Made by a program: the position numbers and the translations under genes
Part shown: positions 1,087 through 11,379 of the stretch, piece by piece
Layout of the letters: each line of letters begins with the position of its first letter
How positions within the stretch are numbered: position 1 is the first letter of the stretch
The notes under the pieces: model-generated
What the model saw: only the letters and a program-made list of their open reading frames with translations
What the model was told of the DNA's origin: nothing
Databases searched by the model: none
Origin: an uncultured Lachnospiraceae bacterium
Lineage (GTDB): Bacteria > Bacillota > Clostridia > Lachnospirales > Lachnospiraceae
DNA length: 11,441 nucleotides
Reading direction: 5' to 3'
NCBI GenBank assembly: GCA_944376975.1
Contig: CALWEE010000034.1
Coordinates: forward strand, 1-11,441

Positions 1087-1701
1087 ATGAAAACAAAAGC
1101 ATGGGAATTGAAGGACATTATCATGATGGCCATTTTAGGGGTGGTCTTTTCCGCCGTGTATCTGGCCGTATTCGATGGAGGCGTGATGCTTTCCACACTT
1201 CTGACGCCCACGGGTCTGTCCAACTTTTCTTTTGAGATCATTTACGGCGTATGGTTCATGGCGGCGACCCTGGCCGCTTACATCATCCGCAAGCCGGGCG
1301 TGGCGCTGGTGACCGAGATGCTGGCGTCGGCCATCGAACTTCTGATGGGCAATTCCGGCGGGCTGACGGTGGTATTGACCGGCGCGATCCAGGGAGCCGG
1401 GGCTGAGCTGGTCTTTGCCCTGTTCCGCTATAAAAAATGGGACCTGGCGTCCATGTCCCTGGCCGGTATGCTGTCGGCTGTCTTTATCTTTATTTACGAG
1501 CTGTTTTATCTGAACTATATCGAACTGGCGCCCACCATGCTCATGGCCCAGCTGGCTGTCCGTTTTGTCAGCGCCATCGTCTTCTCCGGCGTGATCTGCA
1601 AGCTTGCCGGGGATGGTCTGGCAAAGACCGGCGTTGTGAAAAGCTATGCCATTGGAGCCAAGGCGGACACCGGAAAGATCTATGATGAGGAGGATGAATG
1701 A
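1087..1701 (+). CDS. ykoE: ECF transporter S component, YkoE family (HMP/thiamine precursor)
   Basis: This 204-residue hydrophobic membrane protein is the substrate-binding S component of an energy-coupling-factor transporter. It resembles B. subtilis YkoE: an N-terminal WELKDIIMMAILGVVFSAVYL segment, then YGVWFMAATLAAYIIRKPG, the EMLASAIELLMGNSGG loop and the QGAGAELVFALFRYKKW region, which together make about five to six membrane segments. YkoE proteins are assigned to uptake of hydroxymethylpyrimidine or thiamine from their TPP-riboswitch control and neighbours. The start is supported by AAGGAGG at 1070-1076. The gene is first in an operon behind a TPP riboswitch and overlaps the next gene at ATGATG (1698-1703). 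Its ATPase and EcfT partners are encoded two and three genes downstream, so this is a dedicated (group I) ECF system. Confidence 0.93.
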   Translation: MKTKAWELKDIIMMAILGVVFSAVYLAVFDGGVMLSTLLTPTGLSNFSFEIIYGVWFMAATLAAYIIRKPGVALVTEMLASAIELLMGNSGGLTVVLTGAIQGAGAELVFALFRYKKWDLASMSLAGMLSAVFIFIYELFYLNYIELAPTMLMAQLAVRFVSAIVFSGVICKLAGDGLAKTGVVKSYAIGAKADTGKIYDEEDE

Positions 1702-2582
1702 TGGATACGTTAAAAGTTGTTCTGGACTGGTTCCCCAATACGAACCACACCGGTTTTCTGCTGGCGCAGAAACGGGGCTGGTATAAAGAAGCCGGACTTG
1801 AAGTGGAGATATCCGGTGAAGTCCACGGCGATATGGATCTGCACGGCGCCGATTTTGTATGCGGCCCTGAGATCGCCATGCTGGAATGTATGGAGAGAGG
1901 CATCGGCATGACGGCGGTGGCTGTCATGACCCAGAAATGCGATTCCGGTATCGTATCGCTGAAAGAAGCCGGCATCACCCGGCCGAAGGAACTGGAAGGC
2001 AAGCGGCTGACCCACTGGACGCCGGCATGGTTCCATGCCGCCATCGGCCGTGTCGTAGCCGCCGACGGCGGAGATTATTCCAAAGTCAACCTGGTCAATA
2101 TGGACGTGGGCGATATCGTGGCGACACTGGGCCATGTGGCGGACGCCACATGGGTATATGAGAACTGGGAAAACCAGGTGCTCATCGAAGCCGGAAAAGA
2201 GATCAATTATTTCAATCTGGGCGACGTGGATCCCATCTTTGATTTCTGCGCGCCGGCCATGGCCGCGTCCCACAAAGTACTCAAGGAGAAGCCGGACGCC
2301 GTCCGCCGTTTCCTCAACGTTCTGGACCGGGCTTACCAGGAAGTGGCGAAAGATCCGGAGCATACCGTCCTTGAAGTCCGGGATATGCTCCCCGCGGACG
2401 CGACAGACGCGCTGCTGATCCGCAGTCAGAAACATCTGGCGCCCATCTTTTTGGATAAAGACGGACACTGGGGACGGATCGAAGCGAAGCGTTGGGACCG
2501 CATGGCGGATTTCCTCGTGGAGAACGGCGTGATCTCCAGACGCCGGGAGAATGAATATACAAACGAGTATTTTAATTTATGA
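1701..2582 (+). CDS. THI5/NMT1-like thiamine-precursor binding protein without signal peptide
   Basis: A protein of about 293 residues of the NMT1/THI5-like (ThiY) family. The N terminus DTLKVVLDWFPNTNHTG and the GWYKEAGLEVEI segment match the start of the mature periplasmic-binding fold, and the C-terminal YTNEYF motif is also typical. It probably binds a pyrimidine precursor of thiamine (formylaminopyrimidine or HMP). There is no signal peptide or lipobox: the fold begins at residue 2, and a TGA at 1695-1697 blocks any upstream extension, so the protein should be cytoplasmic. In a by-eye comparison with yeast Thi5, the PLP lysine and histidine-donor positions appear to be Gly and Ala (in GADFVCGPEIAML), so HMP synthesis is unlikely. 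GAGGAGG at 1687-1693 favours ATG 1701 over ATG 1698. The gene overlaps ykoE upstream and the ATPase gene downstream (ATGA). Confidence 0.88.
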   Translation: MDTLKVVLDWFPNTNHTGFLLAQKRGWYKEAGLEVEISGEVHGDMDLHGADFVCGPEIAMLECMERGIGMTAVAVMTQKCDSGIVSLKEAGITRPKELEGKRLTHWTPAWFHAAIGRVVAADGGDYSKVNLVNMDVGDIVATLGHVADATWVYENWENQVLIEAGKEINYFNLGDVDPIFDFCAPAMAASHKVLKEKPDAVRRFLNVLDRAYQEVAKDPEHTVLEVRDMLPADATDALLIRSQKHLAPIFLDKDGHWGRIEAKRWDRMADFLVENGVISRRRENEYTNEYFNL

Positions 2583-4006
2583 GCATTCAGTTAGATCATA
2601 TCCATTTTACGTATTTTGAAGACCGGAAGGATCTGCTGCCCGGGTTCAGCGCGTCCTTTTCATCTTCCGAGATCACGGTGCTCACCGGGGCTTCCGGCTG
2701 CGGGAAATCCACGCTGCTCTATCTGGCGGCGGGGATCTATCCCCACGGCGCCGGGATCCTCAGGGAAGGCACGGTGCGGGTGGAAGGCGAAGATCCGGCG
2801 AAGCTTACGCCGCCCAGGCGATGCGCCCTTGTGGGCATGATGTTCCAGAACCCGGAGCTCCAGTTCTGCATGGATACGGTAAAGAATGAGCTGGTCTTCT
2901 GCCTGGAAAATATCTGCATGGATCCGTCCGATATGGATGGCGTGATCGACGAAGCGCTGGAATTTTCCGGCGTCCTTCATCTGAAAGAGCGGACGCTGAT
3001 CAGCCTTTCCGGCGGCGAACGGCAGAAAGTCATGCTGGCCTGCCTCATGGCCTTGCGGCCGAAATGGCTTTTGCTGGACGAACCTTTCGCCAATATCGAC
3101 GATCGGTCCGCGCGGACGATCGCGGCCAAATTAAAAGAGATGAACCGGGTGTACGGGACAGGCATACTGGCGGTGGACCATCGGCTGGACAACTGGCTGG
3201 AAGCGGCCGATACGATAAGGGTCATGGAGGACGGACAGCTGCGTCCGGAGGTCATGACGCCCGACAGCCTGGATCCGGACGTGCTGGAGAGCCTCGGCGT
3301 GATCGTCCCGGGCCATTCCTACAGGCCGGATATCCCGCCGGTAAAAGAAGGAAAGACCGTCCTTACCCTGGAACACCTTTCTGTACATCATAAAAACGAA
3401 CCGGTCCTGACCGATGTGACCGCCGCGTTTAAAGCCGGCCATATCTATGCCATCGTGGGACCGTCCGGCTGCGGGAAAAGCACGTTGTTCGGCGCCCTTT
3501 CCGGCATATTCCCTTATAAGGGGAAAGCGTTCCTGGAAGGAAAAGACTTGAAAAAACTGAAAAAAACCGATCTGGGAAAGATTGGGTTCGTTACCCAGAA
3601 TCCGCAGGATCAGTTTGTGGCGGACACGGTACGGGACGAGATCATGGTGGGGCTTAAAGATAAAGATACGGCGCCCCAGGTAAGCGAACAGGTCCTGCGG
3701 GGCATACGTCTGTGGCGTTACCGGGACATTTCCCCCTATATGCTCAGCCAGGGGCAGCAAAGACGGCTGGGCGTGGCCGCCCTTATGGCTTACGACTGCC
3801 ATATGCTTGTCTGCGATGAACCGACTTACGCCCAGGACCGGCGCAATACCAAAGCGATCATGGACGGCCTGTGTTCCCAGGCCCGGGAGCGGGGCGTGGC
3901 GCTTTTGTTTTCCACCCACGACCGCCAGCTTGCCGCGGATTACGCCGACGAAATATGGGAATTAAAGGAGGGATCTTTGCATGCGTTCCATCAATCCGGC
4001 CATTAA
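2579..4006 (+). CDS. ykoD: ECF transporter ATPase, two fused ABC domains (YkoD family)
   Basis: A 475-residue protein with two complete ABC ATPase domains that powers the ECF transporter as a fused EcfA-EcfA' pair. Domain 1 has Walker A GASGCGKST (residues 37-45), a Q-loop in MMFQNPELQF, signature LSGGERQ (from 143) and Walker B WLLLDEP (D167/E168). Domain 2 has Walker A GPSGCGKST (294-302), Q-loop VTQNPQDQF, a variant signature LSQGQQRR (from 389), and Walker B MLVCDEP (D413/E414). The fused layout is that of B. subtilis YkoD. The start codon overlaps the previous stop (ATGA, 2579-2582), indicating translational coupling, and the end overlaps the EcfT gene by 26 nt. The second signature has Gln for the first Gly of LSGGQ, which is tolerated in several ECF ATPases. 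Confidence 0.95.
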   Translation: MSIQLDHIHFTYFEDRKDLLPGFSASFSSSEITVLTGASGCGKSTLLYLAAGIYPHGAGILREGTVRVEGEDPAKLTPPRRCALVGMMFQNPELQFCMDTVKNELVFCLENICMDPSDMDGVIDEALEFSGVLHLKERTLISLSGGERQKVMLACLMALRPKWLLLDEPFANIDDRSARTIAAKLKEMNRVYGTGILAVDHRLDNWLEAADTIRVMEDGQLRPEVMTPDSLDPDVLESLGVIVPGHSYRPDIPPVKEGKTVLTLEHLSVHHKNEPVLTDVTAAFKAGHIYAIVGPSGCGKSTLFGALSGIFPYKGKAFLEGKDLKKLKKTDLGKIGFVTQNPQDQFVADTVRDEIMVGLKDKDTAPQVSEQVLRGIRLWRYRDISPYMLSQGQQRRLGVAALMAYDCHMLVCDEPTYAQDRRNTKAIMDGLCSQARERGVALLFSTHDRQLAADYADEIWELKEGSLHAFHQSGH

Positions 4007-4682
4007 GTTCGTCAGCCTTCTGGCCATGACGTTTTTTCTGGCCTACCGCTTCGATCCCGTTTTGAATTTTGCCGTATTCTTTTTGTCGCTGGTCATCCTG
4101 ATCGCTTCCGGCGTGGGGATAAAACGGCTGTGCCTGTTCATGATCCCCGTGCTGATCGTGGCGGCGGGCATGTTTTTTACCGGCTACCGGTTTTCCGCCG
4201 GCCATTCCATGCCGGTCACCGCGGACGCTTTCCTCGTCTCCGATTCCCGGTGGTGGAACGGACTGGCCCAGGCCGGCCGGGTACTGGCCTACGGCGGACT
4301 GGGATTCGTGTTTGCCCTGACCACGGATCGCCTGTTTTTGATCCGGTCATTTAAAGACCAGTTCCATCTGCCCCAGATCTTTGTGTACGGCCTTCTGGCG
4401 GCATGGGGCATCGTTCCTCATATGATGCAGGAGTATAAGCGGACGCGGGCCGCTTTCCGGGCAAGGGGGCTTTCGGTCTTGCCTGTGTCGCCGGCGCTTT
4501 TAAAACCGCTGTTGATCAAATCGGTGCGCTGGTCGGAGGAACTGGCTATCGCCATGGAATCCAAAGGGTTTTCCGGCCACGAGAAGCGGACTGATTACGC
4601 GCCGGTGAAAGTCCGGATAAGGGACTTTTTCTTCCTTGCCGCCTGCGTGGCATTGATGGTAGCCGCGGCGTTTTTAAGATAA
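3981..4682 (+). CDS. ykoC: ECF transporter transmembrane protein EcfT (YkoC family)
   Basis: A 233-residue integral membrane protein that links the S component to the ATPase. The N terminus starts RSINPAIKFVSLLAMTFFLAYRF, typical of EcfT/CbiQ proteins, and is followed by several hydrophobic segments and a C-terminal helix (FFFLAACVALMVAAAF). Two cytoplasmic coupling motifs are visible: A161-R162-G163 in AAFRARGLS and S194-K195-G196 in MESKGF, the X-R-G motifs that dock onto the ATPase dimer. ATG at 3981 is preceded by AAAGGAGG at 3964-3971 with good spacing and overlaps the end of the ATPase gene by 26 nt. It is the last gene of the TPP-regulated operon; a strong hairpin follows 43 nt after the stop. 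Confidence 0.93.
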   Translation: MRSINPAIKFVSLLAMTFFLAYRFDPVLNFAVFFLSLVILIASGVGIKRLCLFMIPVLIVAAGMFFTGYRFSAGHSMPVTADAFLVSDSRWWNGLAQAGRVLAYGGLGFVFALTTDRLFLIRSFKDQFHLPQIFVYGLLAAWGIVPHMMQEYKRTRAAFRARGLSVLPVSPALLKPLLIKSVRWSEELAIAMESKGFSGHEKRTDYAPVKVRIRDFFFLAACVALMVAAAFLR

Positions 4683-7520: not shown

Positions 7521-8351
7521 ATGCGGGTAGATTATCATGTACATTCCGAGTTCAGCGACGACTCGGTATACCCGATGGAGGCGGTCGCGCGGGACGCGAT
7601 CCGCATGGGGCTGGATGAGATCTGTTTTACGGACCACGTGGATTACGGGATAAAAGTGGACTGGGATCAGGGCGAAACGATCCGTTACCGCAACGGCAAT
7701 CCGTTTGCCAATGTGGATTATCCCAGATATATGGAAAAGATCGGACAGTTAAAAAAGGCGTATGGCGACCGGATCGTCATACGTACAGGCATGGAATTCG
7801 GCGTCCAGACCCATACGATCCCCCAGTTTCGCCGACTGTACGACCGATACGCCTTTGATTTCATCATCCTGTCCATCCATCAGGTGGAAGATAAGGAATT
7901 CTGGACGCAGGATTTTCAGAAAGGACGCACCCAGAAGGAATATAATGAACGATATTACGAGGAAATGCTGGCCGTTGTGAAATCGTTTAAAGATTACAGC
8001 GTGCTGGGGCATATGGACCTGATCACCCGGTACGATCTGGCGGGCGTTTACCCGTTTGAGAAAGTCCGGCCGATGATCGAGGCGATACTCAAGGTGGCGA
8101 TCGGCGACGGCAAAGGGATCGAGATCAATACGTCCTATCACCGGTACGGTCTTAAAGACACCACGCCTTCGGTGGATATACTGAAGCTTTACCGGCAGAT
8201 GGGCGGAGAGATCGTCACCATCGGCAGCGACAGTCATAAACCGGATCAGCTGGGCACCTATATCCAGGAGGCGAAAGACGTTCTGAAATCTCTCGGGTAT
8301 AAATATTTCTGCACTTACGAGGGCATGAAGCCCATTTATCACGATCTGTGA
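7521..8351 (+). CDS. PHP-family phosphatase, histidinol-phosphatase type
   Basis: A 276-residue protein of the PHP phosphoesterase superfamily, closest in layout to HisK/HisJ histidinol-phosphatase, which removes phosphate from histidinol phosphate in histidine synthesis. All expected metal ligands are visible: H6 and H8 (DYHVHSE), D38-H39 (CFTDHVD), E92 (GMEFG), H120 (LSIHQ), H164 (LGHMD), and D237 with H239 (GSDSHKP). The start ATG 7521 follows AAGGAGG at 7507-7513 and lies 12 bp after the ATPase gene. No other histidine gene is nearby, so it could serve another phosphoester; PHP proteins of this size are routinely annotated HisK without proof. It ends the operon and faces the minus-strand HxlR gene, with no clear terminator in the 52-bp gap. 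Confidence 0.88.
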   Translation: MRVDYHVHSEFSDDSVYPMEAVARDAIRMGLDEICFTDHVDYGIKVDWDQGETIRYRNGNPFANVDYPRYMEKIGQLKKAYGDRIVIRTGMEFGVQTHTIPQFRRLYDRYAFDFIILSIHQVEDKEFWTQDFQKGRTQKEYNERYYEEMLAVVKSFKDYSVLGHMDLITRYDLAGVYPFEKVRPMIEAILKVAIGDGKGIEINTSYHRYGLKDTTPSVDILKLYRQMGGEIVTIGSDSHKPDQLGTYIQEAKDVLKSLGYKYFCTYEGMKPIYHDL

Positions 8352-8403
8352 TACAAATGATAAATGACGCTTTTGGAAAGGGGCGCGGGAAGCGGAAAAG
8401 CTT

Positions 8404-8604
8404 TCATCTCAAGGACGCCTTGTATTCCTCGCCCCAATTCCACAGAGCGTCGAGAATAGGCTTCAGGCTCTTGCCCAGGTCCGTCAGAGAATATTCGACC
8501 CGCGGAGGCACTTCCGCATATACTTTCCATTTATCTCCGATCAAGGTCAAGGTCGTCTCCACAGGGCAATCCGGCAATTCCTTGATATATTTATTCTCAC
8601 TCAT
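8404..8604 (-). CDS. HxlR-family regulator with internal in-frame deletion (probable pseudogene)
   Basis: A minus-strand ORF of 66 residues (67 if read from 8607). The first part, [16 protein letters not shown], is the N-terminal helix of HxlR transcription factors; the second part, [19 protein letters not shown] followed by [15 protein letters not shown], is their C-terminal wing and dimerisation helix. Normal HxlR proteins have 100-125 residues. Here about 40-45 residues between the Lys-Trp-Lys-Val and Tyr-Ala-Glu-Val segments are missing, including the recognition helix, and the frame is kept. The join lies at about 8520-8527. CTCCT at 8613-8617 (AGGAG on the coding strand) favours the second ATG at 8604. 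It is divergent from PPOX-type remnants and an HxlR-like operator, the usual target arrangement. It cannot bind DNA in the normal way; it is most likely decayed. Confidence 0.85.
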
Positions 8605-8709
8605 CATATCATCTCCTGTTGATCGTTTTTATCAGAAACTTTGCCTGAGTTCACAGGTGTTTCCCTTTGACAGCGGTCCAATAGTATCTTTTTGGTAACT
8701 ACAGCACAA

Positions 8710-8725
8710 TAAAGTGCTTACTTTA
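8710..8725. promoter_or_regulatory. HxlR-like operator dyad and divergent promoter region
   Basis: TAAAGT-GCTT-ACTTTA is a perfect 6+6 dyad of the kind bound by HxlR/YodB regulators. It lies between the divergent HxlR remnant and the PPOX-type remnants. On the plus strand TATTAT (8745-8750) with TTTACG (8722-8727) at 17 bp could serve as a promoter overlapping it, and TATAAT occurs on both strands around 8746-8753. This fits an old autoregulated divergent promoter now left without a functional repressor. Confidence 0.5.
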
Positions 8726-8811
8726 CGATCGGTGGTTACGGATTTATTATAATCTTGCAAGATGAAGATCGCAATCCTAAAAACCATATTCAAGATCAGG
8801 ATGTATTTATC

Positions 8812-8865
8812 ATGAATGAAGTCGTAAAGTTTTTGCAGGAAAATCCCGCAAGTGTCAAGTCTTGA
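8812..8865 (+). pseudogene. N-terminal remnant of a PPOX-family (pyridoxamine 5'-phosphate oxidase-like) gene
   Basis: ATG at 8812 opens the short peptide MNEVVKFLQENPASVKS. Its first twelve residues are the typical start of small pyridoxamine-5'-phosphate-oxidase-like flavin-binding proteins (normally continuing with a YLATVG-type strand and about 130 residues). Homology stops after ENP, exactly where the sequence AGTGTCAAGT begins, and the frame closes five codons later. Such proteins are frequent neighbours and targets of HxlR regulators, which fits the divergent HxlR remnant. The identification rests on a short match, so it is moderately sure. Confidence 0.55.
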
Positions 8866-8892: not shown

Positions 8893-9015
8893 GTGCAGAC
8901 GAAAGATTATTTGCAATATATCGTTGAGAAGATCCACTCCGCTGTATTTGCTACAGTGGACAGCAAGCATTCAAAAAGGCTTCTGAATGAAAGGAGGGAC
9001 AAAAATGACACATAA
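8893..9015 (+). pseudogene. N-terminal remnant of a second PPOX/flavin-binding gene
   Basis: A GTG at 8893 with a perfect AGGAGG at 8881-8886 opens a frame beginning (M)QTKDYLQYIVEKIHSAVFATVDS. This is the start of Clostridial PPOX-class proteins, some of which carry a 4Fe-4S tail and exceed 150 residues. After FATVDS the expected strand is lost: the frame reads KHSKRLLNERRDKNDT and stops at 9013-9015, overlapping the start of the macrodomain gene. The intact ribosome binding site and N terminus followed by abrupt loss indicate deletion rather than chance. The join probably lies near 8964. Confidence 0.6.
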
Positions 9016-9784
9016 TGAAAAAAGAGAATATCTGATAAAAGCATTGCTGTCAGAACTCCCGCAATACAGCGATATGGAAATACCAGACAATGAGGATGAG
9101 CAGAAAAGGCTTCTCAGAAGTCTAATGAATATTCGCCCGCCACGCCCGATCAGTAATGAATTTCTTAAAGTTCAGGATGAATATTTAAGTGAAGAAGTTG
9201 AAATAAAAGGAGTTACAGACAGCGCATCATTACCTGAGTCATCCCTTGATAGCCGTCTGGTATTATGGCGTGGGGATATTACAACGCTAAAAATTGATGC
9301 TATTGTAAATGCGGCAAACAGTGCTTTAAGGGGATGTTTTGTACCTTGCCATTCTTGCGTGGATAACATTATCCACAGCGTAAGTGGCATACAGCTCCGT
9401 TTGGCTTGTGATAAGATTATGAATGAGCAGGGATATGGCGAACCGACGGGGAGAGCGAAAATTACACCTGCGTATAATTTACCTTCTAAATATGTGCTTC
9501 ACACTGTCGGACCGATCGTATCAGGACACTTGACAGATAAACATTGTAGACAGCTTGCAGACTGCTATAAATCCTGCTTGGTGCTTGCGGCAGATAGCGG
9601 TCTGAAAAGTATTGCGTTCTGCTGTATTTCCACCGGAGAATTTCATTTCCCACAGAAAAAGGCAGCGGAAATTGCGGTACAAACAGTTAAGGATTATCTG
9701 AACACAGATACGCGCATAGAGAAGGTGGTATTTAATGTTTTCAAACAAGAGGATTATGACATCTACCGAGAACTCATCGGATAA
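9005..9784 (+). CDS. zinc-containing macrodomain protein (ADP-ribosyl hydrolase of SirTM pair)
   Basis: A 259-residue protein: an N-terminal helical region (about residues 1-80) followed by a macrodomain. GDITTLKIDAIVNAANSAL (90-108) is the ADP-ribose-binding start of the fold. GCFVPCHSCVDNIIH (110-124) is the cysteine/histidine-rich zinc site specific to Zn-macro proteins, and CISTGEFHFP is the phosphate-binding loop. In the described bacterial systems this type of macrodomain removes ADP-ribose added by its partner class M sirtuin. ATG 9005 is preceded by AAGGAGGGA (8990-8998); the upstream in-frame ATG 8987 has no such site. The gene overlaps the sirtuin by 50 nt, so they are translationally coupled. 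It is clearly richer in A/T than the genes left of 8400, suggesting transfer. Confidence 0.93.
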   Translation: MTHNEKREYLIKALLSELPQYSDMEIPDNEDEQKRLLRSLMNIRPPRPISNEFLKVQDEYLSEEVEIKGVTDSASLPESSLDSRLVLWRGDITTLKIDAIVNAANSALRGCFVPCHSCVDNIIHSVSGIQLRLACDKIMNEQGYGEPTGRAKITPAYNLPSKYVLHTVGPIVSGHLTDKHCRQLADCYKSCLVLAADSGLKSIAFCCISTGEFHFPQKKAAEIAVQTVKDYLNTDTRIEKVVFNVFKQEDYDIYRELIG

Positions 9785-10604
9785 CACAAAGTGTTTCCAT
9801 GAACTTTTGCAAAAGATAGATACTGTTATTATTGGCGCAGGCGCAGGTCTGTCTACTTCTGCAGGTTTCACATATACGGGAAAGCGATTTGAAGATAATT
9901 TTGCTGATTTTATTCATAAGTATGGATTTAGAGATATGTATTCAGGCGGCTTTTTCCCTTTTGCCAGTCAGGAAGAATATTGGGCATATTGGTCAAGATA
10001 TGTTTTTATAAACCGATATGCGGACATAGATAACGGAACATACAAAAGACTTTTTGAGCTTGTGAAAGATAAGGATTATTTTGTCTTAACCACAAATGTT
10101 GACCATCAATTTCAAAAAGCGGGTTTTGATAAACAGAGATTATTTTATACACAGGGCGATTATGGTCTTTTTCAATGTAGTGTCCCCTGCCATAATAGCA
10201 CTTATGATAATGAAGCAGTTATTCGTGCAATGGTTGAACAGCAGGCAGATATGCGAATACCGACAGAACTCATTCCACATTGTCCTGTTTGCGGCAAAAC
10301 GACGACAATGAATTTAAGAACTGACGACACTTTTGTCCAAGATGAAGGTTGGTATCGGGCGAATGAACGGTACGCAGATTTTGTTCGCAGGCACAAAGGA
10401 CAGCAGATCCTTTTTTTAGAACTTGGAGTCGGAATGAACACCCCCGGTATAGTGAAATTTTCCTTCTGGAGAATGACAGCGGAGAATCCCTGGGCGGTTT
10501 ATGCCTGCGTCAACCTGGGGGAAGCCGGAGCCCCAAGAGAAATTGCAAATCGTTCTATCTGCATTGACGGGGATATTGGCGAAGTATTAAAAAAATTAAA
10601 ATGA
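9735..10604 (+). CDS. class M sirtuin (SirTM), protein ADP-ribosyltransferase
   Basis: A 289-residue Sir2-family protein of the SirTM class, which transfers ADP-ribose from NAD+ to proteins instead of deacetylating. NAD-binding motifs are GAGAGLSTSAG (34-44) and TTNVDHQ (119-125). At the place of the sirtuin catalytic histidine there is Q147 (GDYGLFQC), as in SirTM proteins. Four cysteines, C148, C152, C183 and C186 (CSVPC ... CPVC), form the zinc site. The end, SICIDGDIGEVL, is the usual sirtuin C terminus. AAGGTGG at 9722-9728 supports ATG 9735, inside the macrodomain gene. In described SirTM operons the substrate is a GcvH-like protein lipoylated by LplA2; neither is seen here, so the target is open. 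Codons around 10440-10540 are more GC-rich than the rest of the gene. Confidence 0.93.
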   Translation: MFSNKRIMTSTENSSDNTKCFHELLQKIDTVIIGAGAGLSTSAGFTYTGKRFEDNFADFIHKYGFRDMYSGGFFPFASQEEYWAYWSRYVFINRYADIDNGTYKRLFELVKDKDYFVLTTNVDHQFQKAGFDKQRLFYTQGDYGLFQCSVPCHNSTYDNEAVIRAMVEQQADMRIPTELIPHCPVCGKTTTMNLRTDDTFVQDEGWYRANERYADFVRRHKGQQILFLELGVGMNTPGIVKFSFWRMTAENPWAVYACVNLGEAGAPREIANRSICIDGDIGEVLKKLK

Positions 10605-10767: not shown

Positions 10768-11379
10768 ATGGCATACGGTTATGCGAAAGAGATTCAAAAA
10801 CGCATTGGTGCGGCTCCTGACGGTACGATTTTTATTGTTTCCGATTTTGCGGATGTGGCGGACAGCGAGACCATACGCAGGAACCTGAACCGGCTTGTAC
10901 AGGCTGGGACGCTCAGGCGTATTTTGAAAGGAGTCTTTGAAAAGCCGAAATTCAGCAAGCTCCTTGGGGAATTTGTGGCAGCGGACCCGGATGCGGTTGC
11001 CAAAGCATTGGCGAGATGCTATCATTGGACCATCGCTCCCTGTGGAGATACCGCATTAAATATGCTGGGGCTGTCTACTCAGGTAACGGCAGTATGGTCC
11101 TATATCAGCGACGGACCATATAAAACCTATGAATGGGATAAGACAAAGATTGAATTTAAGCACCGGACCAACAAGGAGGTTACGGGCCTGTCGCCTATGA
11201 CGATCCTGGTGATCCAGGCGTTAAAGACCCTGGGAAAAGAACATGTGGACGAAAAAACCATACGGGTGCTTTCCCGCAGGCTGAATGAAGATGAAAAGGC
11301 GGCGCTCCTTGCAGAAGGGGCCGAAGCGACGGATTGGATTTACACTGTGATTAAAGAAATCTGCGGTAGTGTCAAGTAA
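10768..11379 (+). CDS. DUF6088 / AbiEi-like winged-helix protein (putative type IV antitoxin)
   Basis: A 203-residue protein recognised as DUF6088-type, related to the AbiEi antitoxins of type IV toxin-antitoxin and abortive-infection systems. The N-terminal part (IFIVSDFADVADSETIRRNL, then NRLVQAGTLRRILKGVF, about residues 20-58) is a winged-helix DNA-binding domain. The rest (CYHWTIAPCGDTALNMLGLS and the FKHRTNKEVTGLSPMTILVI segment) matches the AbiEi C-terminal region that contacts the toxin. AAAGGAGG at 10752-10759 sets the start at ATG 10768. The promoter holds a perfect inverted repeat, consistent with autoregulation. The expected partner, an AbiEii-type nucleotidyltransferase toxin, would follow downstream but is not seen in the 62 nt left. 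The short end EICGSVK may be cut: its last codons form the sequence AGTGTCAAGT, also found at the PPOX stump. Confidence 0.82.
   Translation: MAYGYAKEIQKRIGAAPDGTIFIVSDFADVADSETIRRNLNRLVQAGTLRRILKGVFEKPKFSKLLGEFVAADPDAVAKALARCYHWTIAPCGDTALNMLGLSTQVTAVWSYISDGPYKTYEWDKTKIEFKHRTNKEVTGLSPMTILVIQALKTLGKEHVDEKTIRVLSRRLNEDEKAALLAEGAEATDWIYTVIKEICGSVK

Follow-up and report, generated by a model that had tools for sequence, protein, structure and literature searches.

We describe here a pair of genes for a Zn-macrodomain protein (Zn-Macro, the predicted eraser) and a class M sirtuin (SirTM, the predicted writer) of protein ADP-ribosylation, located on an 11,441-nucleotide stretch of DNA from an uncultured Lachnospiraceae bacterium (contig CALWEE010000034.1, assembly GCA_944376975.1). 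This stretch, called the window in the following, is the entire contig C34 of an assembly of 1.83 Mb, which consists of 274 contigs and is 91.4% complete. The minimal writer-eraser pair is probably the remnant of a redox-stress operon, and would provide a thiol-stress-induced, reversible ADP-ribosylation of a redox target other than a lipoyl carrier. This target is not encoded in the contig.

The first gene of the pair (9005..9784, plus strand) was assigned as a Zn-macrodomain and predicted ADP-ribosyl hydrolase by NCBIfam, Pfam and comparison with the sequences of solved structures. It scores 353.7 bits against the NCBIfam protein-ADP-ribose hydrolase (cut-off 272) and 120.7 bits against Pfam Macro. 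Its nearest solved structure is MorMacro (8rsi; 290.9 bits, 55% identity), followed by SauMacro (234 bits, 47% identity) and SpyMacro (200.3 bits); reading 8rsi as SpyMacro was ruled out, as the data section of PMC11490716 gives 8RSI as MorMacro. In the alignment, the Cys/His zinc site of the catalytic loop and the ADP-ribose contact residues are kept, with C111, H116, C118, N105 and D120 invariant between the window protein, MorMacro and SauMacro. The two cysteines are presumably zinc ligands. H116 aligns with the histidine that we took as H117 of SpyMacro, whose H117Y variant is inactive (PMC11490716).

The second gene (9735..10604, plus strand) encodes the class M sirtuin, a predicted ADP-ribosyltransferase. 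Its frame matches PDB entry 5a3a, a SIR2 family protein, with 236 bits and is 40% identical to SpySirTM; the Pfam SIR2 score of 17.4 bits lies under the cut-off of 24. The catalytic residues N118, Q137 and R192 of SpySirTM are kept as N121, Q140 and R195 (in chain 5a3a, N, Q and R are all shifted by 10 against the published numbering), and GVGMNTP at residues 231-237 fits the SpySirTM motif GVGx[NT]TP. Instead of the catalytic HG the protein carries QG (Q140-G141), invariant across 11 aligned sequences and described as a class M sirtuin feature (PMC4518038). The two genes overlap by 50 nt (9735-9784), and purine-rich, ribosome-binding-like sequences can be read 5' of both starts. The overlap was measurable in 93 related loci, leaving out 24 loci unalignable at residue 1 and 6 with the macrodomain downstream or on the opposite strand; it is exactly 50 nt in 42 and 56 nt in 33 of them, so that the arrangement is an inherited one. 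The pair is thus as intact, and its overlap as long, as the original prediction had read from the window.

Bacterial SirTM and macrodomain genes are described to form either independent operons or parts of extended operons (Rack 2015, PMC4518038). The same paper names Clostridiaceae and Lachnospiraceae among the families with SirTMs, and describes extended operons with the carrier GcvH-L and the ligase LplA2 for Lactobacillales and Staphylococcaceae. The earlier statement that SirTM operons include a GcvH-like carrier and LplA2 consequently applies to the extended operons and not to lone pairs, which that paper describes as well. As minimal pairs are already a published class (PMC4518038, PMC11490716), the lack of the lipoyl module is no anomaly, and the view that the missing genes are unusual had to be given up. 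No SirTM target besides GcvH-L is known so far, and those of other SirTM/Zn-Macro systems are called elusive (Ariza 2024, PMC11490716).

No gene for GcvH-L or LplA2 was found beside the pair in the contig. The absence of a lipoyl module extends to the whole assembly within its completeness of 91.4%, as profile searches found neither GcvH (E 0.001), LplA (TIGR00545, E 0.001) nor LipA (TIGR00510, E 1e-20). The sole PF03099 (BPL_LplA_LipB) match is BirA with 160.8 bits, and the sole Biotin_lipoyl domain is that of the biotin carrier AccB with 125.6 bits. Since no gene to make a lipoyl carrier was found, the target is probably not such a carrier, and a target other than lipoyl-GcvH-L, as proposed from the sequence at first, is likely. 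The alternative suggestion of an extended-operon-like action on a lipoylated carrier, with the carrier gene located elsewhere in the genome, is very improbable. As a candidate, the carrier in trans was rejected when the searches with GCV_H, BPL_LplA_LipB, TIGR00545, TIGR00510 and Biotin_lipoyl left only BirA and AccB.

To place this result in the class, we used a sample of 391 genomes drawn evenly from it, with a SirTM presence threshold of E 1e-40; SirTM is present in 66 of them, including the window's own genome (G000). GcvH (E 1e-12) was found in 5/66 SirTM genomes compared to 108/325 genomes without SirTM (Fisher p about 1e-5), so that the carrier is rarer where the writer occurs. In favor of a carrier in trans, a lipoate ligase (LplA) is present in 14/66 SirTM genomes next to the five with GcvH, and a full GcvH match (>130 bits) occurs in five genomes of a further set of 50, composed of G000 and the genomes behind 49 of the loci close to the window introduced below; eight genomes of that set gave weak partial-model matches of 20-29 bits. 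LipA is found in 0/66, and because all five GcvH genomes fall among the 14 LplA genomes, none of the three genes was found in 52/66 SirTM genomes. The lipoyl model therefore fails to explain most of the SirTM family in the class. GcvH is near SirTM in a single one of the 66 genomes (G434), where a DGC-GcvH fusion gene lies about 1 kb upstream of SirTM, which counts for the carrier; close homologues are hence far from always accompanied by lipoyl genes. The SirTM of this genome (locus L162, 6111-7752) has no Zn-Macro and lies downstream of the DGC domain-GcvH fusion and of further frames that look DGC-like by eye; this is possibly another type of carrier.

MorMacro, the macrodomain of a minimal pair from Methanobrevibacter oralis, was unable to demodify GcvH-L (PMC11490716), which likewise argues against a lipoyl carrier as target. 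The residues named for GcvH-L contact are replaced in the window protein, with SauMacro R175/R176 (taken as the RR of the contact loop) corresponding to S173/G174, and SpyMacro K175, R183 and R172 (numbers taken as chain index minus 4) to S173, H180 and a gap, although the net charge of this loop is non-discriminating and K179 adjoins H180. It amounts to +1 in the window and MorMacro and +2 in SauMacro and SpyMacro, and 94 loops of the locus set span -4 to +4. A basic loop charge was thus rejected as a marker of GcvH-L binding, as it does not split the groups and the differences are confined to the named residues.

Kinship with fuller operons is apparent upstream of the pair. A remnant of an HxlR/DUF24-family regulator (8404..8607, minus strand; PF01638 45.2 bits, residues 28-63 only) retains both ends, including its N-terminal Cys and the context of this residue, and has lost an internal stretch of 45 residues with the frame preserved, as seen from intact homologues in loci L009, L078, L079 and others. 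Between this remnant and the pair lies the intact palindromic operator-like element GGTAACTACAGCACAATAAAGTGCTTACTTTAC (8694..8726, plus strand), which scores 49.6 bits with a matrix trained on other loci and whose 3' end falls where the -35 box would lie. Just downstream, TATAAT (8748..8753, plus strand) was read from the sequence as the likely -10 box, and the same hexamer or a near match stands at the aligned position of several homologous promoters. Two gene stumps follow on the plus strand. Stump 1 (8812..8865) holds the first 12 residues, MNEVVKFLQENP, of a PPOX-like gene before it is cut; the same start is found at the corresponding position in L049, L078 and L154, and the intact homologue of L154 is a PNPOx_N protein (47.5 bits). 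Stump 2 (8893..9015) is the likewise cut N-terminal part of a PPOX-ferredoxin flavoprotein (QTKDYLQYIVEKIHSAVFATVD), with 65% identity over 34 residues to L049, whose intact homologue comprises PNPOx_N and Fer4 domains. The PPOX-type stumps and broken regulator that had been noted upstream of the pair are thereby confirmed. Of an HxlR-controlled redox operon, the window contains the conserved operator-like element; an intact divergent HxlR gene and intact redox genes are absent, and both are present as stumps only.

Conservation of the element and of the neighbourhood was assessed in two sets of loci. Set 1 consists of the 80 best among 578 confirmed loci; these come from named genomes and are close to the window. 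Set 2 was taken from the even class sample and comprises 60 loci whose SirTM scores above 250 bits, which remained of 71 loci after removal of L190-L194 (radical SAM regions without SirTM), the window's own contig and loci below 250 bits. The sets are not independent, as L063 and L137 have identical SirTM. The operator matrix, trained on sites from 46 of the 80 set-1 loci, found a match up to 6 kb upstream in 32/60 held-out set-2 loci, three of them weak (14-20 bits), and in 0/60 shuffled stretches (one shuffle per locus); elsewhere in the locus, with 2.7 times more sequence, 6/60 loci gave matches. A blastn search with the window promoter returned a matching segment in 63/150 other loci (E up to 0.5, position relative to SirTM unchecked).

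In set 2, the neighbours are Zn-Macro (57 of the 60 loci), HxlR (32), PPOX (23), radical SAM (12), nitroreductase (11), an NAD(P)-binding protein (8), Rrf2 (8), DUF1848 (4), an MBL-like protein of an unnamed family (4) and a zinc-type dehydrogenase (1). For the 53 loci with at least 4.5 kb upstream, HxlR or Rrf2 is found in 37, and at least one of PPOX, radical SAM, nitroreductase, NAD(P)-binding protein and dehydrogenase in 25. Set 1 gives Zn-Macro in 66/80, HxlR in 36/80, PPOX in 27/80 and radical SAM in 16/80, with HxlR/Rrf2 in 39 and a redox family in 31 of the 61 loci with enough upstream sequence. The reference proteins for these searches were taken from set-1 loci, which favours linked subfamilies. 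Over all 140 loci, the matches concentrate within 5.5 kb upstream of SirTM (697 kb in total) compared to the remaining 1228 kb, with 67 vs 2 for HxlR, 50 vs 2 for PPOX and 28 vs 0 for radical SAM. The PPOX proteins of SirTM loci carry a PNPOx-type domain with 4Fe-4S motifs. The window stumps best fit the gene order of L049, which reads divergent HxlR, PNPOx-type (PPOX) gene, ECF transporter component, PNPOx-ferredoxin gene, Zn-Macro and SirTM; the transporter gene within this operon (8014-8715) encodes a substrate component (PF12822, 125.1 bits). The link to flavin or redox stress that had been suspected at the outset is supported by these neighbours and by an operator common to many, not all, relatives.

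The DUF24 regulators HypR, YodB and CatR are described to respond to HOCl, quinones and diamide by way of an N-terminal Cys, and the nitroreductase YodC acts on quinones and diamide (PMC6943732). In the likely working of the locus, thiol-reactive stress would release an HxlR/DUF24 repressor acting in trans, upon which the Zn-Macro/SirTM pair would be made; with NAD+ as donor, SirTM would then attach a single ADP-ribose to a redox protein, at an acidic (or thiol) side chain, and Zn-Macro would remove it again. Several observations weigh against this picture. Neither HxlR nor Rrf2 is present in 16/53 loci with at least 4.5 kb upstream, 28/53 have none of the five redox families tested, and 28/60 held-out loci lack an operator match. 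As the window's own HxlR gene is broken, regulation by HxlR needs another copy. Single genes may be missed in an assembly that is about 9% incomplete and split into 274 contigs, LipB and ligases unlike TIGR00545 were covered in the own genome alone (through PF03099), and the loop net charge and the K179 mentioned above blur the difference to macrodomains acting on GcvH-L.

Truncation of HxlR and both PPOX genes, together with four same-genus genomes without a match to the upstream region, could also mean that the locus is decaying, with its partners lost and the pair left as a passenger before its own loss. We consider this unlikely, as neither enzyme is shortened or has lost a tested catalytic residue, near-identical full-length SirTM proteins are found on other contigs (P0002, P0003), and neither the operator-like element nor the -10 box is damaged; in a fragmented assembly, misassembly could moreover account for what look like serial internal deletions. 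Three neighbouring genes between 8404 and 8970 each show sequence loss, with the element, the -10 box and the pair intact, and true deletions and misassembly would both fit this region and are not distinguishable here. In L018 (8641-10056), a chimera that joins a PPOX gene in frame to a truncated macrodomain resembles the internal deletions of the window. As Rosetta-stone evidence this PPOX-Macro fusion was rejected, since the beginning of the macrodomain is missing from its frame of 471 residues, which by eye looks like a deletion chimera.

Rather than a peptide, the true target of the family might be one of the operon's own enzymes, either the nitroreductase or the PPOX-ferredoxin flavoprotein. 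Linkage to PPOX is more frequent than to the radical SAM enzyme discussed below (23 vs 12 of 60 loci), and oxidoreductases accompany the extended operon, too (PMC4518038). In the window, however, the pair persists in spite of the cut PPOX genes, and among the extended-operon proteins tested, GcvH-L alone was labelled (PMC4518038). Because the partner oxidoreductase varies between PPOX, nitroreductase, zinc-type dehydrogenase and NAD(P)-binding protein, a shared pathway appears likelier than one such target, and we regard an operon enzyme as a doubtful, if conceivable, substrate.

With 607.5 bits in L057 (cut-off 400), the recurrent upstream radical SAM gene was identified as TIGR04340, which is the ACGX system's radical SAM/SPASM enzyme. 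In the class sample, 15/391 genomes from nine genera carry TIGR04340 above the cut-off, and SirTM is found in all 15 (Fisher p 6e-13 by genome and 3e-7 by genus, with kinship removed to genus level only); a further genome without SirTM, G229, has a match under the cut-off (308 bits, one internal stop). SirTM follows on the same contig and strand at most 5 kb downstream in 12 of the 15, among them G390, which has a stop codon in the radical SAM frame. Two others, G365 and G345, have a radical SAM operon without adjacent SirTM and SirTM on another contig, and in G381 the radical SAM gene lies 1.7 kb from the contig end; a second copy in G314 is located on a 4.15-kb contig without SirTM. The set of 50 genomes contains 20 with TIGR04340 above the cut-off, of which 15 had been chosen for that and the remaining five are among 34 not so chosen. 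Upstream of the radical SAM gene, 31/33 loci have a frame with at least two ACG units, the exceptions being L072, cut by the contig end, and the distant L193. These peptides have about 46-90 residues, 3-8 ACG units and several Asp/Glu; two were scanned with TIGR04341, one passing the cut-off of 28 with 31.1 bits and the other falling short with 24.4 bits. On the SirTM tree (FastTree only), ACGX linkage takes no fewer than 20 changes, of which well-supported branches force 10 or more, compared to 25.8 on average for shuffled labels, with as low a number in 1/500 shuffles. These counts point to repeated meeting and only moderate clustering of the ACGX and SirTM modules.

GcvH, LplA and LipA were not found in 14/15 TIGR04340 genomes, the exception being G345. 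A tentative proposal, which we hold possible rather than probable, is that in Clostridia-type genomes an ACGX-repeat peptide replaced GcvH-L and its radical SAM/SPASM maturase replaced LplA2. SirTM and Zn-Macro would reversibly ADP-ribosylate the matured peptide and thereby switch a redox function in thiol stress, and the window pair would have lost this module or use a relative in trans. The two modules would be alike in pairing a small carrier with a maturing enzyme, beside oxidoreductases and the same writer-eraser pair. The window SirTM groups with those of L003, L004, L010 and L061 (96 local support), and a complete ACGX operon is found in L004 and not in the other three. In the window's own assembly, the best TIGR04340 match reaches 43.1 bits against the cut-off of 400; the window pair may therefore be the remains of an ACGX-type operon, and the ACGX hypothesis concerns the relatives and not the window's genome. 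In the literature searched, outside of which most subscription papers lie, we found no paper on the ACGX/TIGR04340/TIGR04341 system, judged for ACGX by titles and the opening lines of abstracts, and nothing that combines SirTM with a radical SAM enzyme or peptide maturase, or a macrodomain with HxlR. If the replacement is true, class M sirtuins would share the principle of modifying small matured thiol carriers and not lipoylation as such, and the peptide, should it be the substrate, would be, to our knowledge, the first radical-SAM-matured peptide under reversible ADP-ribosylation.

At its 3' end, SirTM carries an exchangeable segment (10437..10604, plus strand) that behaves as a recombination hotspot, judged by duplicate copies downstream in related loci and by mosaic identity. 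Over residues 1-236 the window protein is 89-95% identical to P0005-P0008, P0010 and P0011, compared to 48-62% over residues 237-289; the corresponding values are 92%/75% for P0009 and 99%/77% for P0004, and five more distant proteins show little contrast (81-82% vs 69-75%). From these identities, the SirTM proteins of close relatives look like mosaics with a break near residue 237. The terminal part of SirTM recurs 1.1-3.5 kb downstream in 6/129 loci with at least 500 bases downstream (L034, L049, L050, L073, L130, L169), and in five of the six the repeated part starts 164-167 nt before the gene end. Enclosed between the copies are genes for RhuM-Fic (L034), AbiEii (L049), an AlbA_2-type protein (L050, and by cluster L073) and AAA_14-DUF4143 (L130).

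Downstream of SirTM in the window lies the predicted DUF6088 gene (10768..11379, plus strand; PF19570 122.6 bits), which is AbiEi-type antitoxin-like, with 213.6 bits against PADLOC AbiEi and 21.3 bits against NCBIfam TAA_AbiEi, under its cut-off of 150. This DNA is also found after the SirTM genes of other loci (L041 89%, L051 79%, L052 93%, L059 98%). Because it recurs in this way at a recombining 3' end, the DUF6088 gene is most likely an inserted cassette and not a partner of the pair. The AbiEi/AbiEii, RhuM-Fic, AlbA_2-type and AAA_14-DUF4143 genes at the SirTM 3' end of several loci might suggest that the pair itself is an anti-phage or toxin-antitoxin module whose loci attract defence-type cassettes, and in L057 the ACGX radical SAM protein weakly matches the PADLOC viperin model (pVip, 51.5 bits), as other radical SAM proteins may. 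No PADLOC model matches either pair enzyme at E 0.01, upon which a defence role was rejected, and upstream it is redox genes and regulators that recur, unlike the defence-type genes, which vary by locus and look inserted. Such a function is accordingly most unlikely.

Compared with the published minimal Zn-Macro/SirTM operon, the window shares the adjacent pair without GcvH-L or LplA2 and the Zn-Macro similarity to MorMacro; the published passages are silent on neighbourhood and regulation, whereas the window has an operator-like element and redox-operon remnants. With the extended operon (GcvH-L, LplA2, Zn-Macro, SirTM, OYE, LLM) it has the writer-eraser pair and the class M residues in common, as well as oxidoreductases beside its relatives, and differs by lacking the two lipoyl genes and the named basic contact residues, the net charge being non-discriminating. 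In many relatives, one of them L004 of the window's small clade, the ACGX system (TIGR04340, TIGR04341) immediately precedes Zn-Macro/SirTM; it is absent from the window and, at the cut-off, from its assembly. The HxlR/DUF24 thiol-stress regulons (YodB-YodC, HypR-HypO, CatR) resemble the locus in their N-terminal-Cys DUF24 regulator and palindromic element and in the nitroreductase or flavin oxidoreductase genes near the window's relatives, and differ in that the local regulator of the window is broken. We know of no ADP-ribosylation pair in the Bacillus DUF24 regulons. New here are the lipoyl-gene survey, the redox neighbourhood with its operator-like element, the ACGX linkage and the recombination hotspot at the SirTM 3' end. 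On the basis of the element, the redox partners, and the ACGX peptide and maturase, the inducers and substrates to be tested can be narrowed to a short list.

Linkage of SirTM to Zn-Macro is not universal, as 14/80 set-1 loci have no Zn-Macro by tblastn. Two of these, L047 and L068, have SirTM at the contig end, and in the other twelve (L020, L034, L038, L039, L041, L042, L043, L051, L054, L069, L071, L072) no Zn-Macro is present in the fetched stretch, which for L041, L042 and L051 comprises less than 1 kb downstream. Four of them adjoin an ACGX radical SAM gene (L038, L039, L069, L072). SirTM proteins lacking a neighbouring Zn-Macro are possible writers without an adjacent eraser. A row of several SirTM-like matches with 32-45% identity and no macrodomain match is found in L195. 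Further upstream in the window, at 1087-4682, frames can be seen by eye that resemble an ECF-type transporter and a THI5/NMT1-like substrate protein for thiamine precursor uptake.

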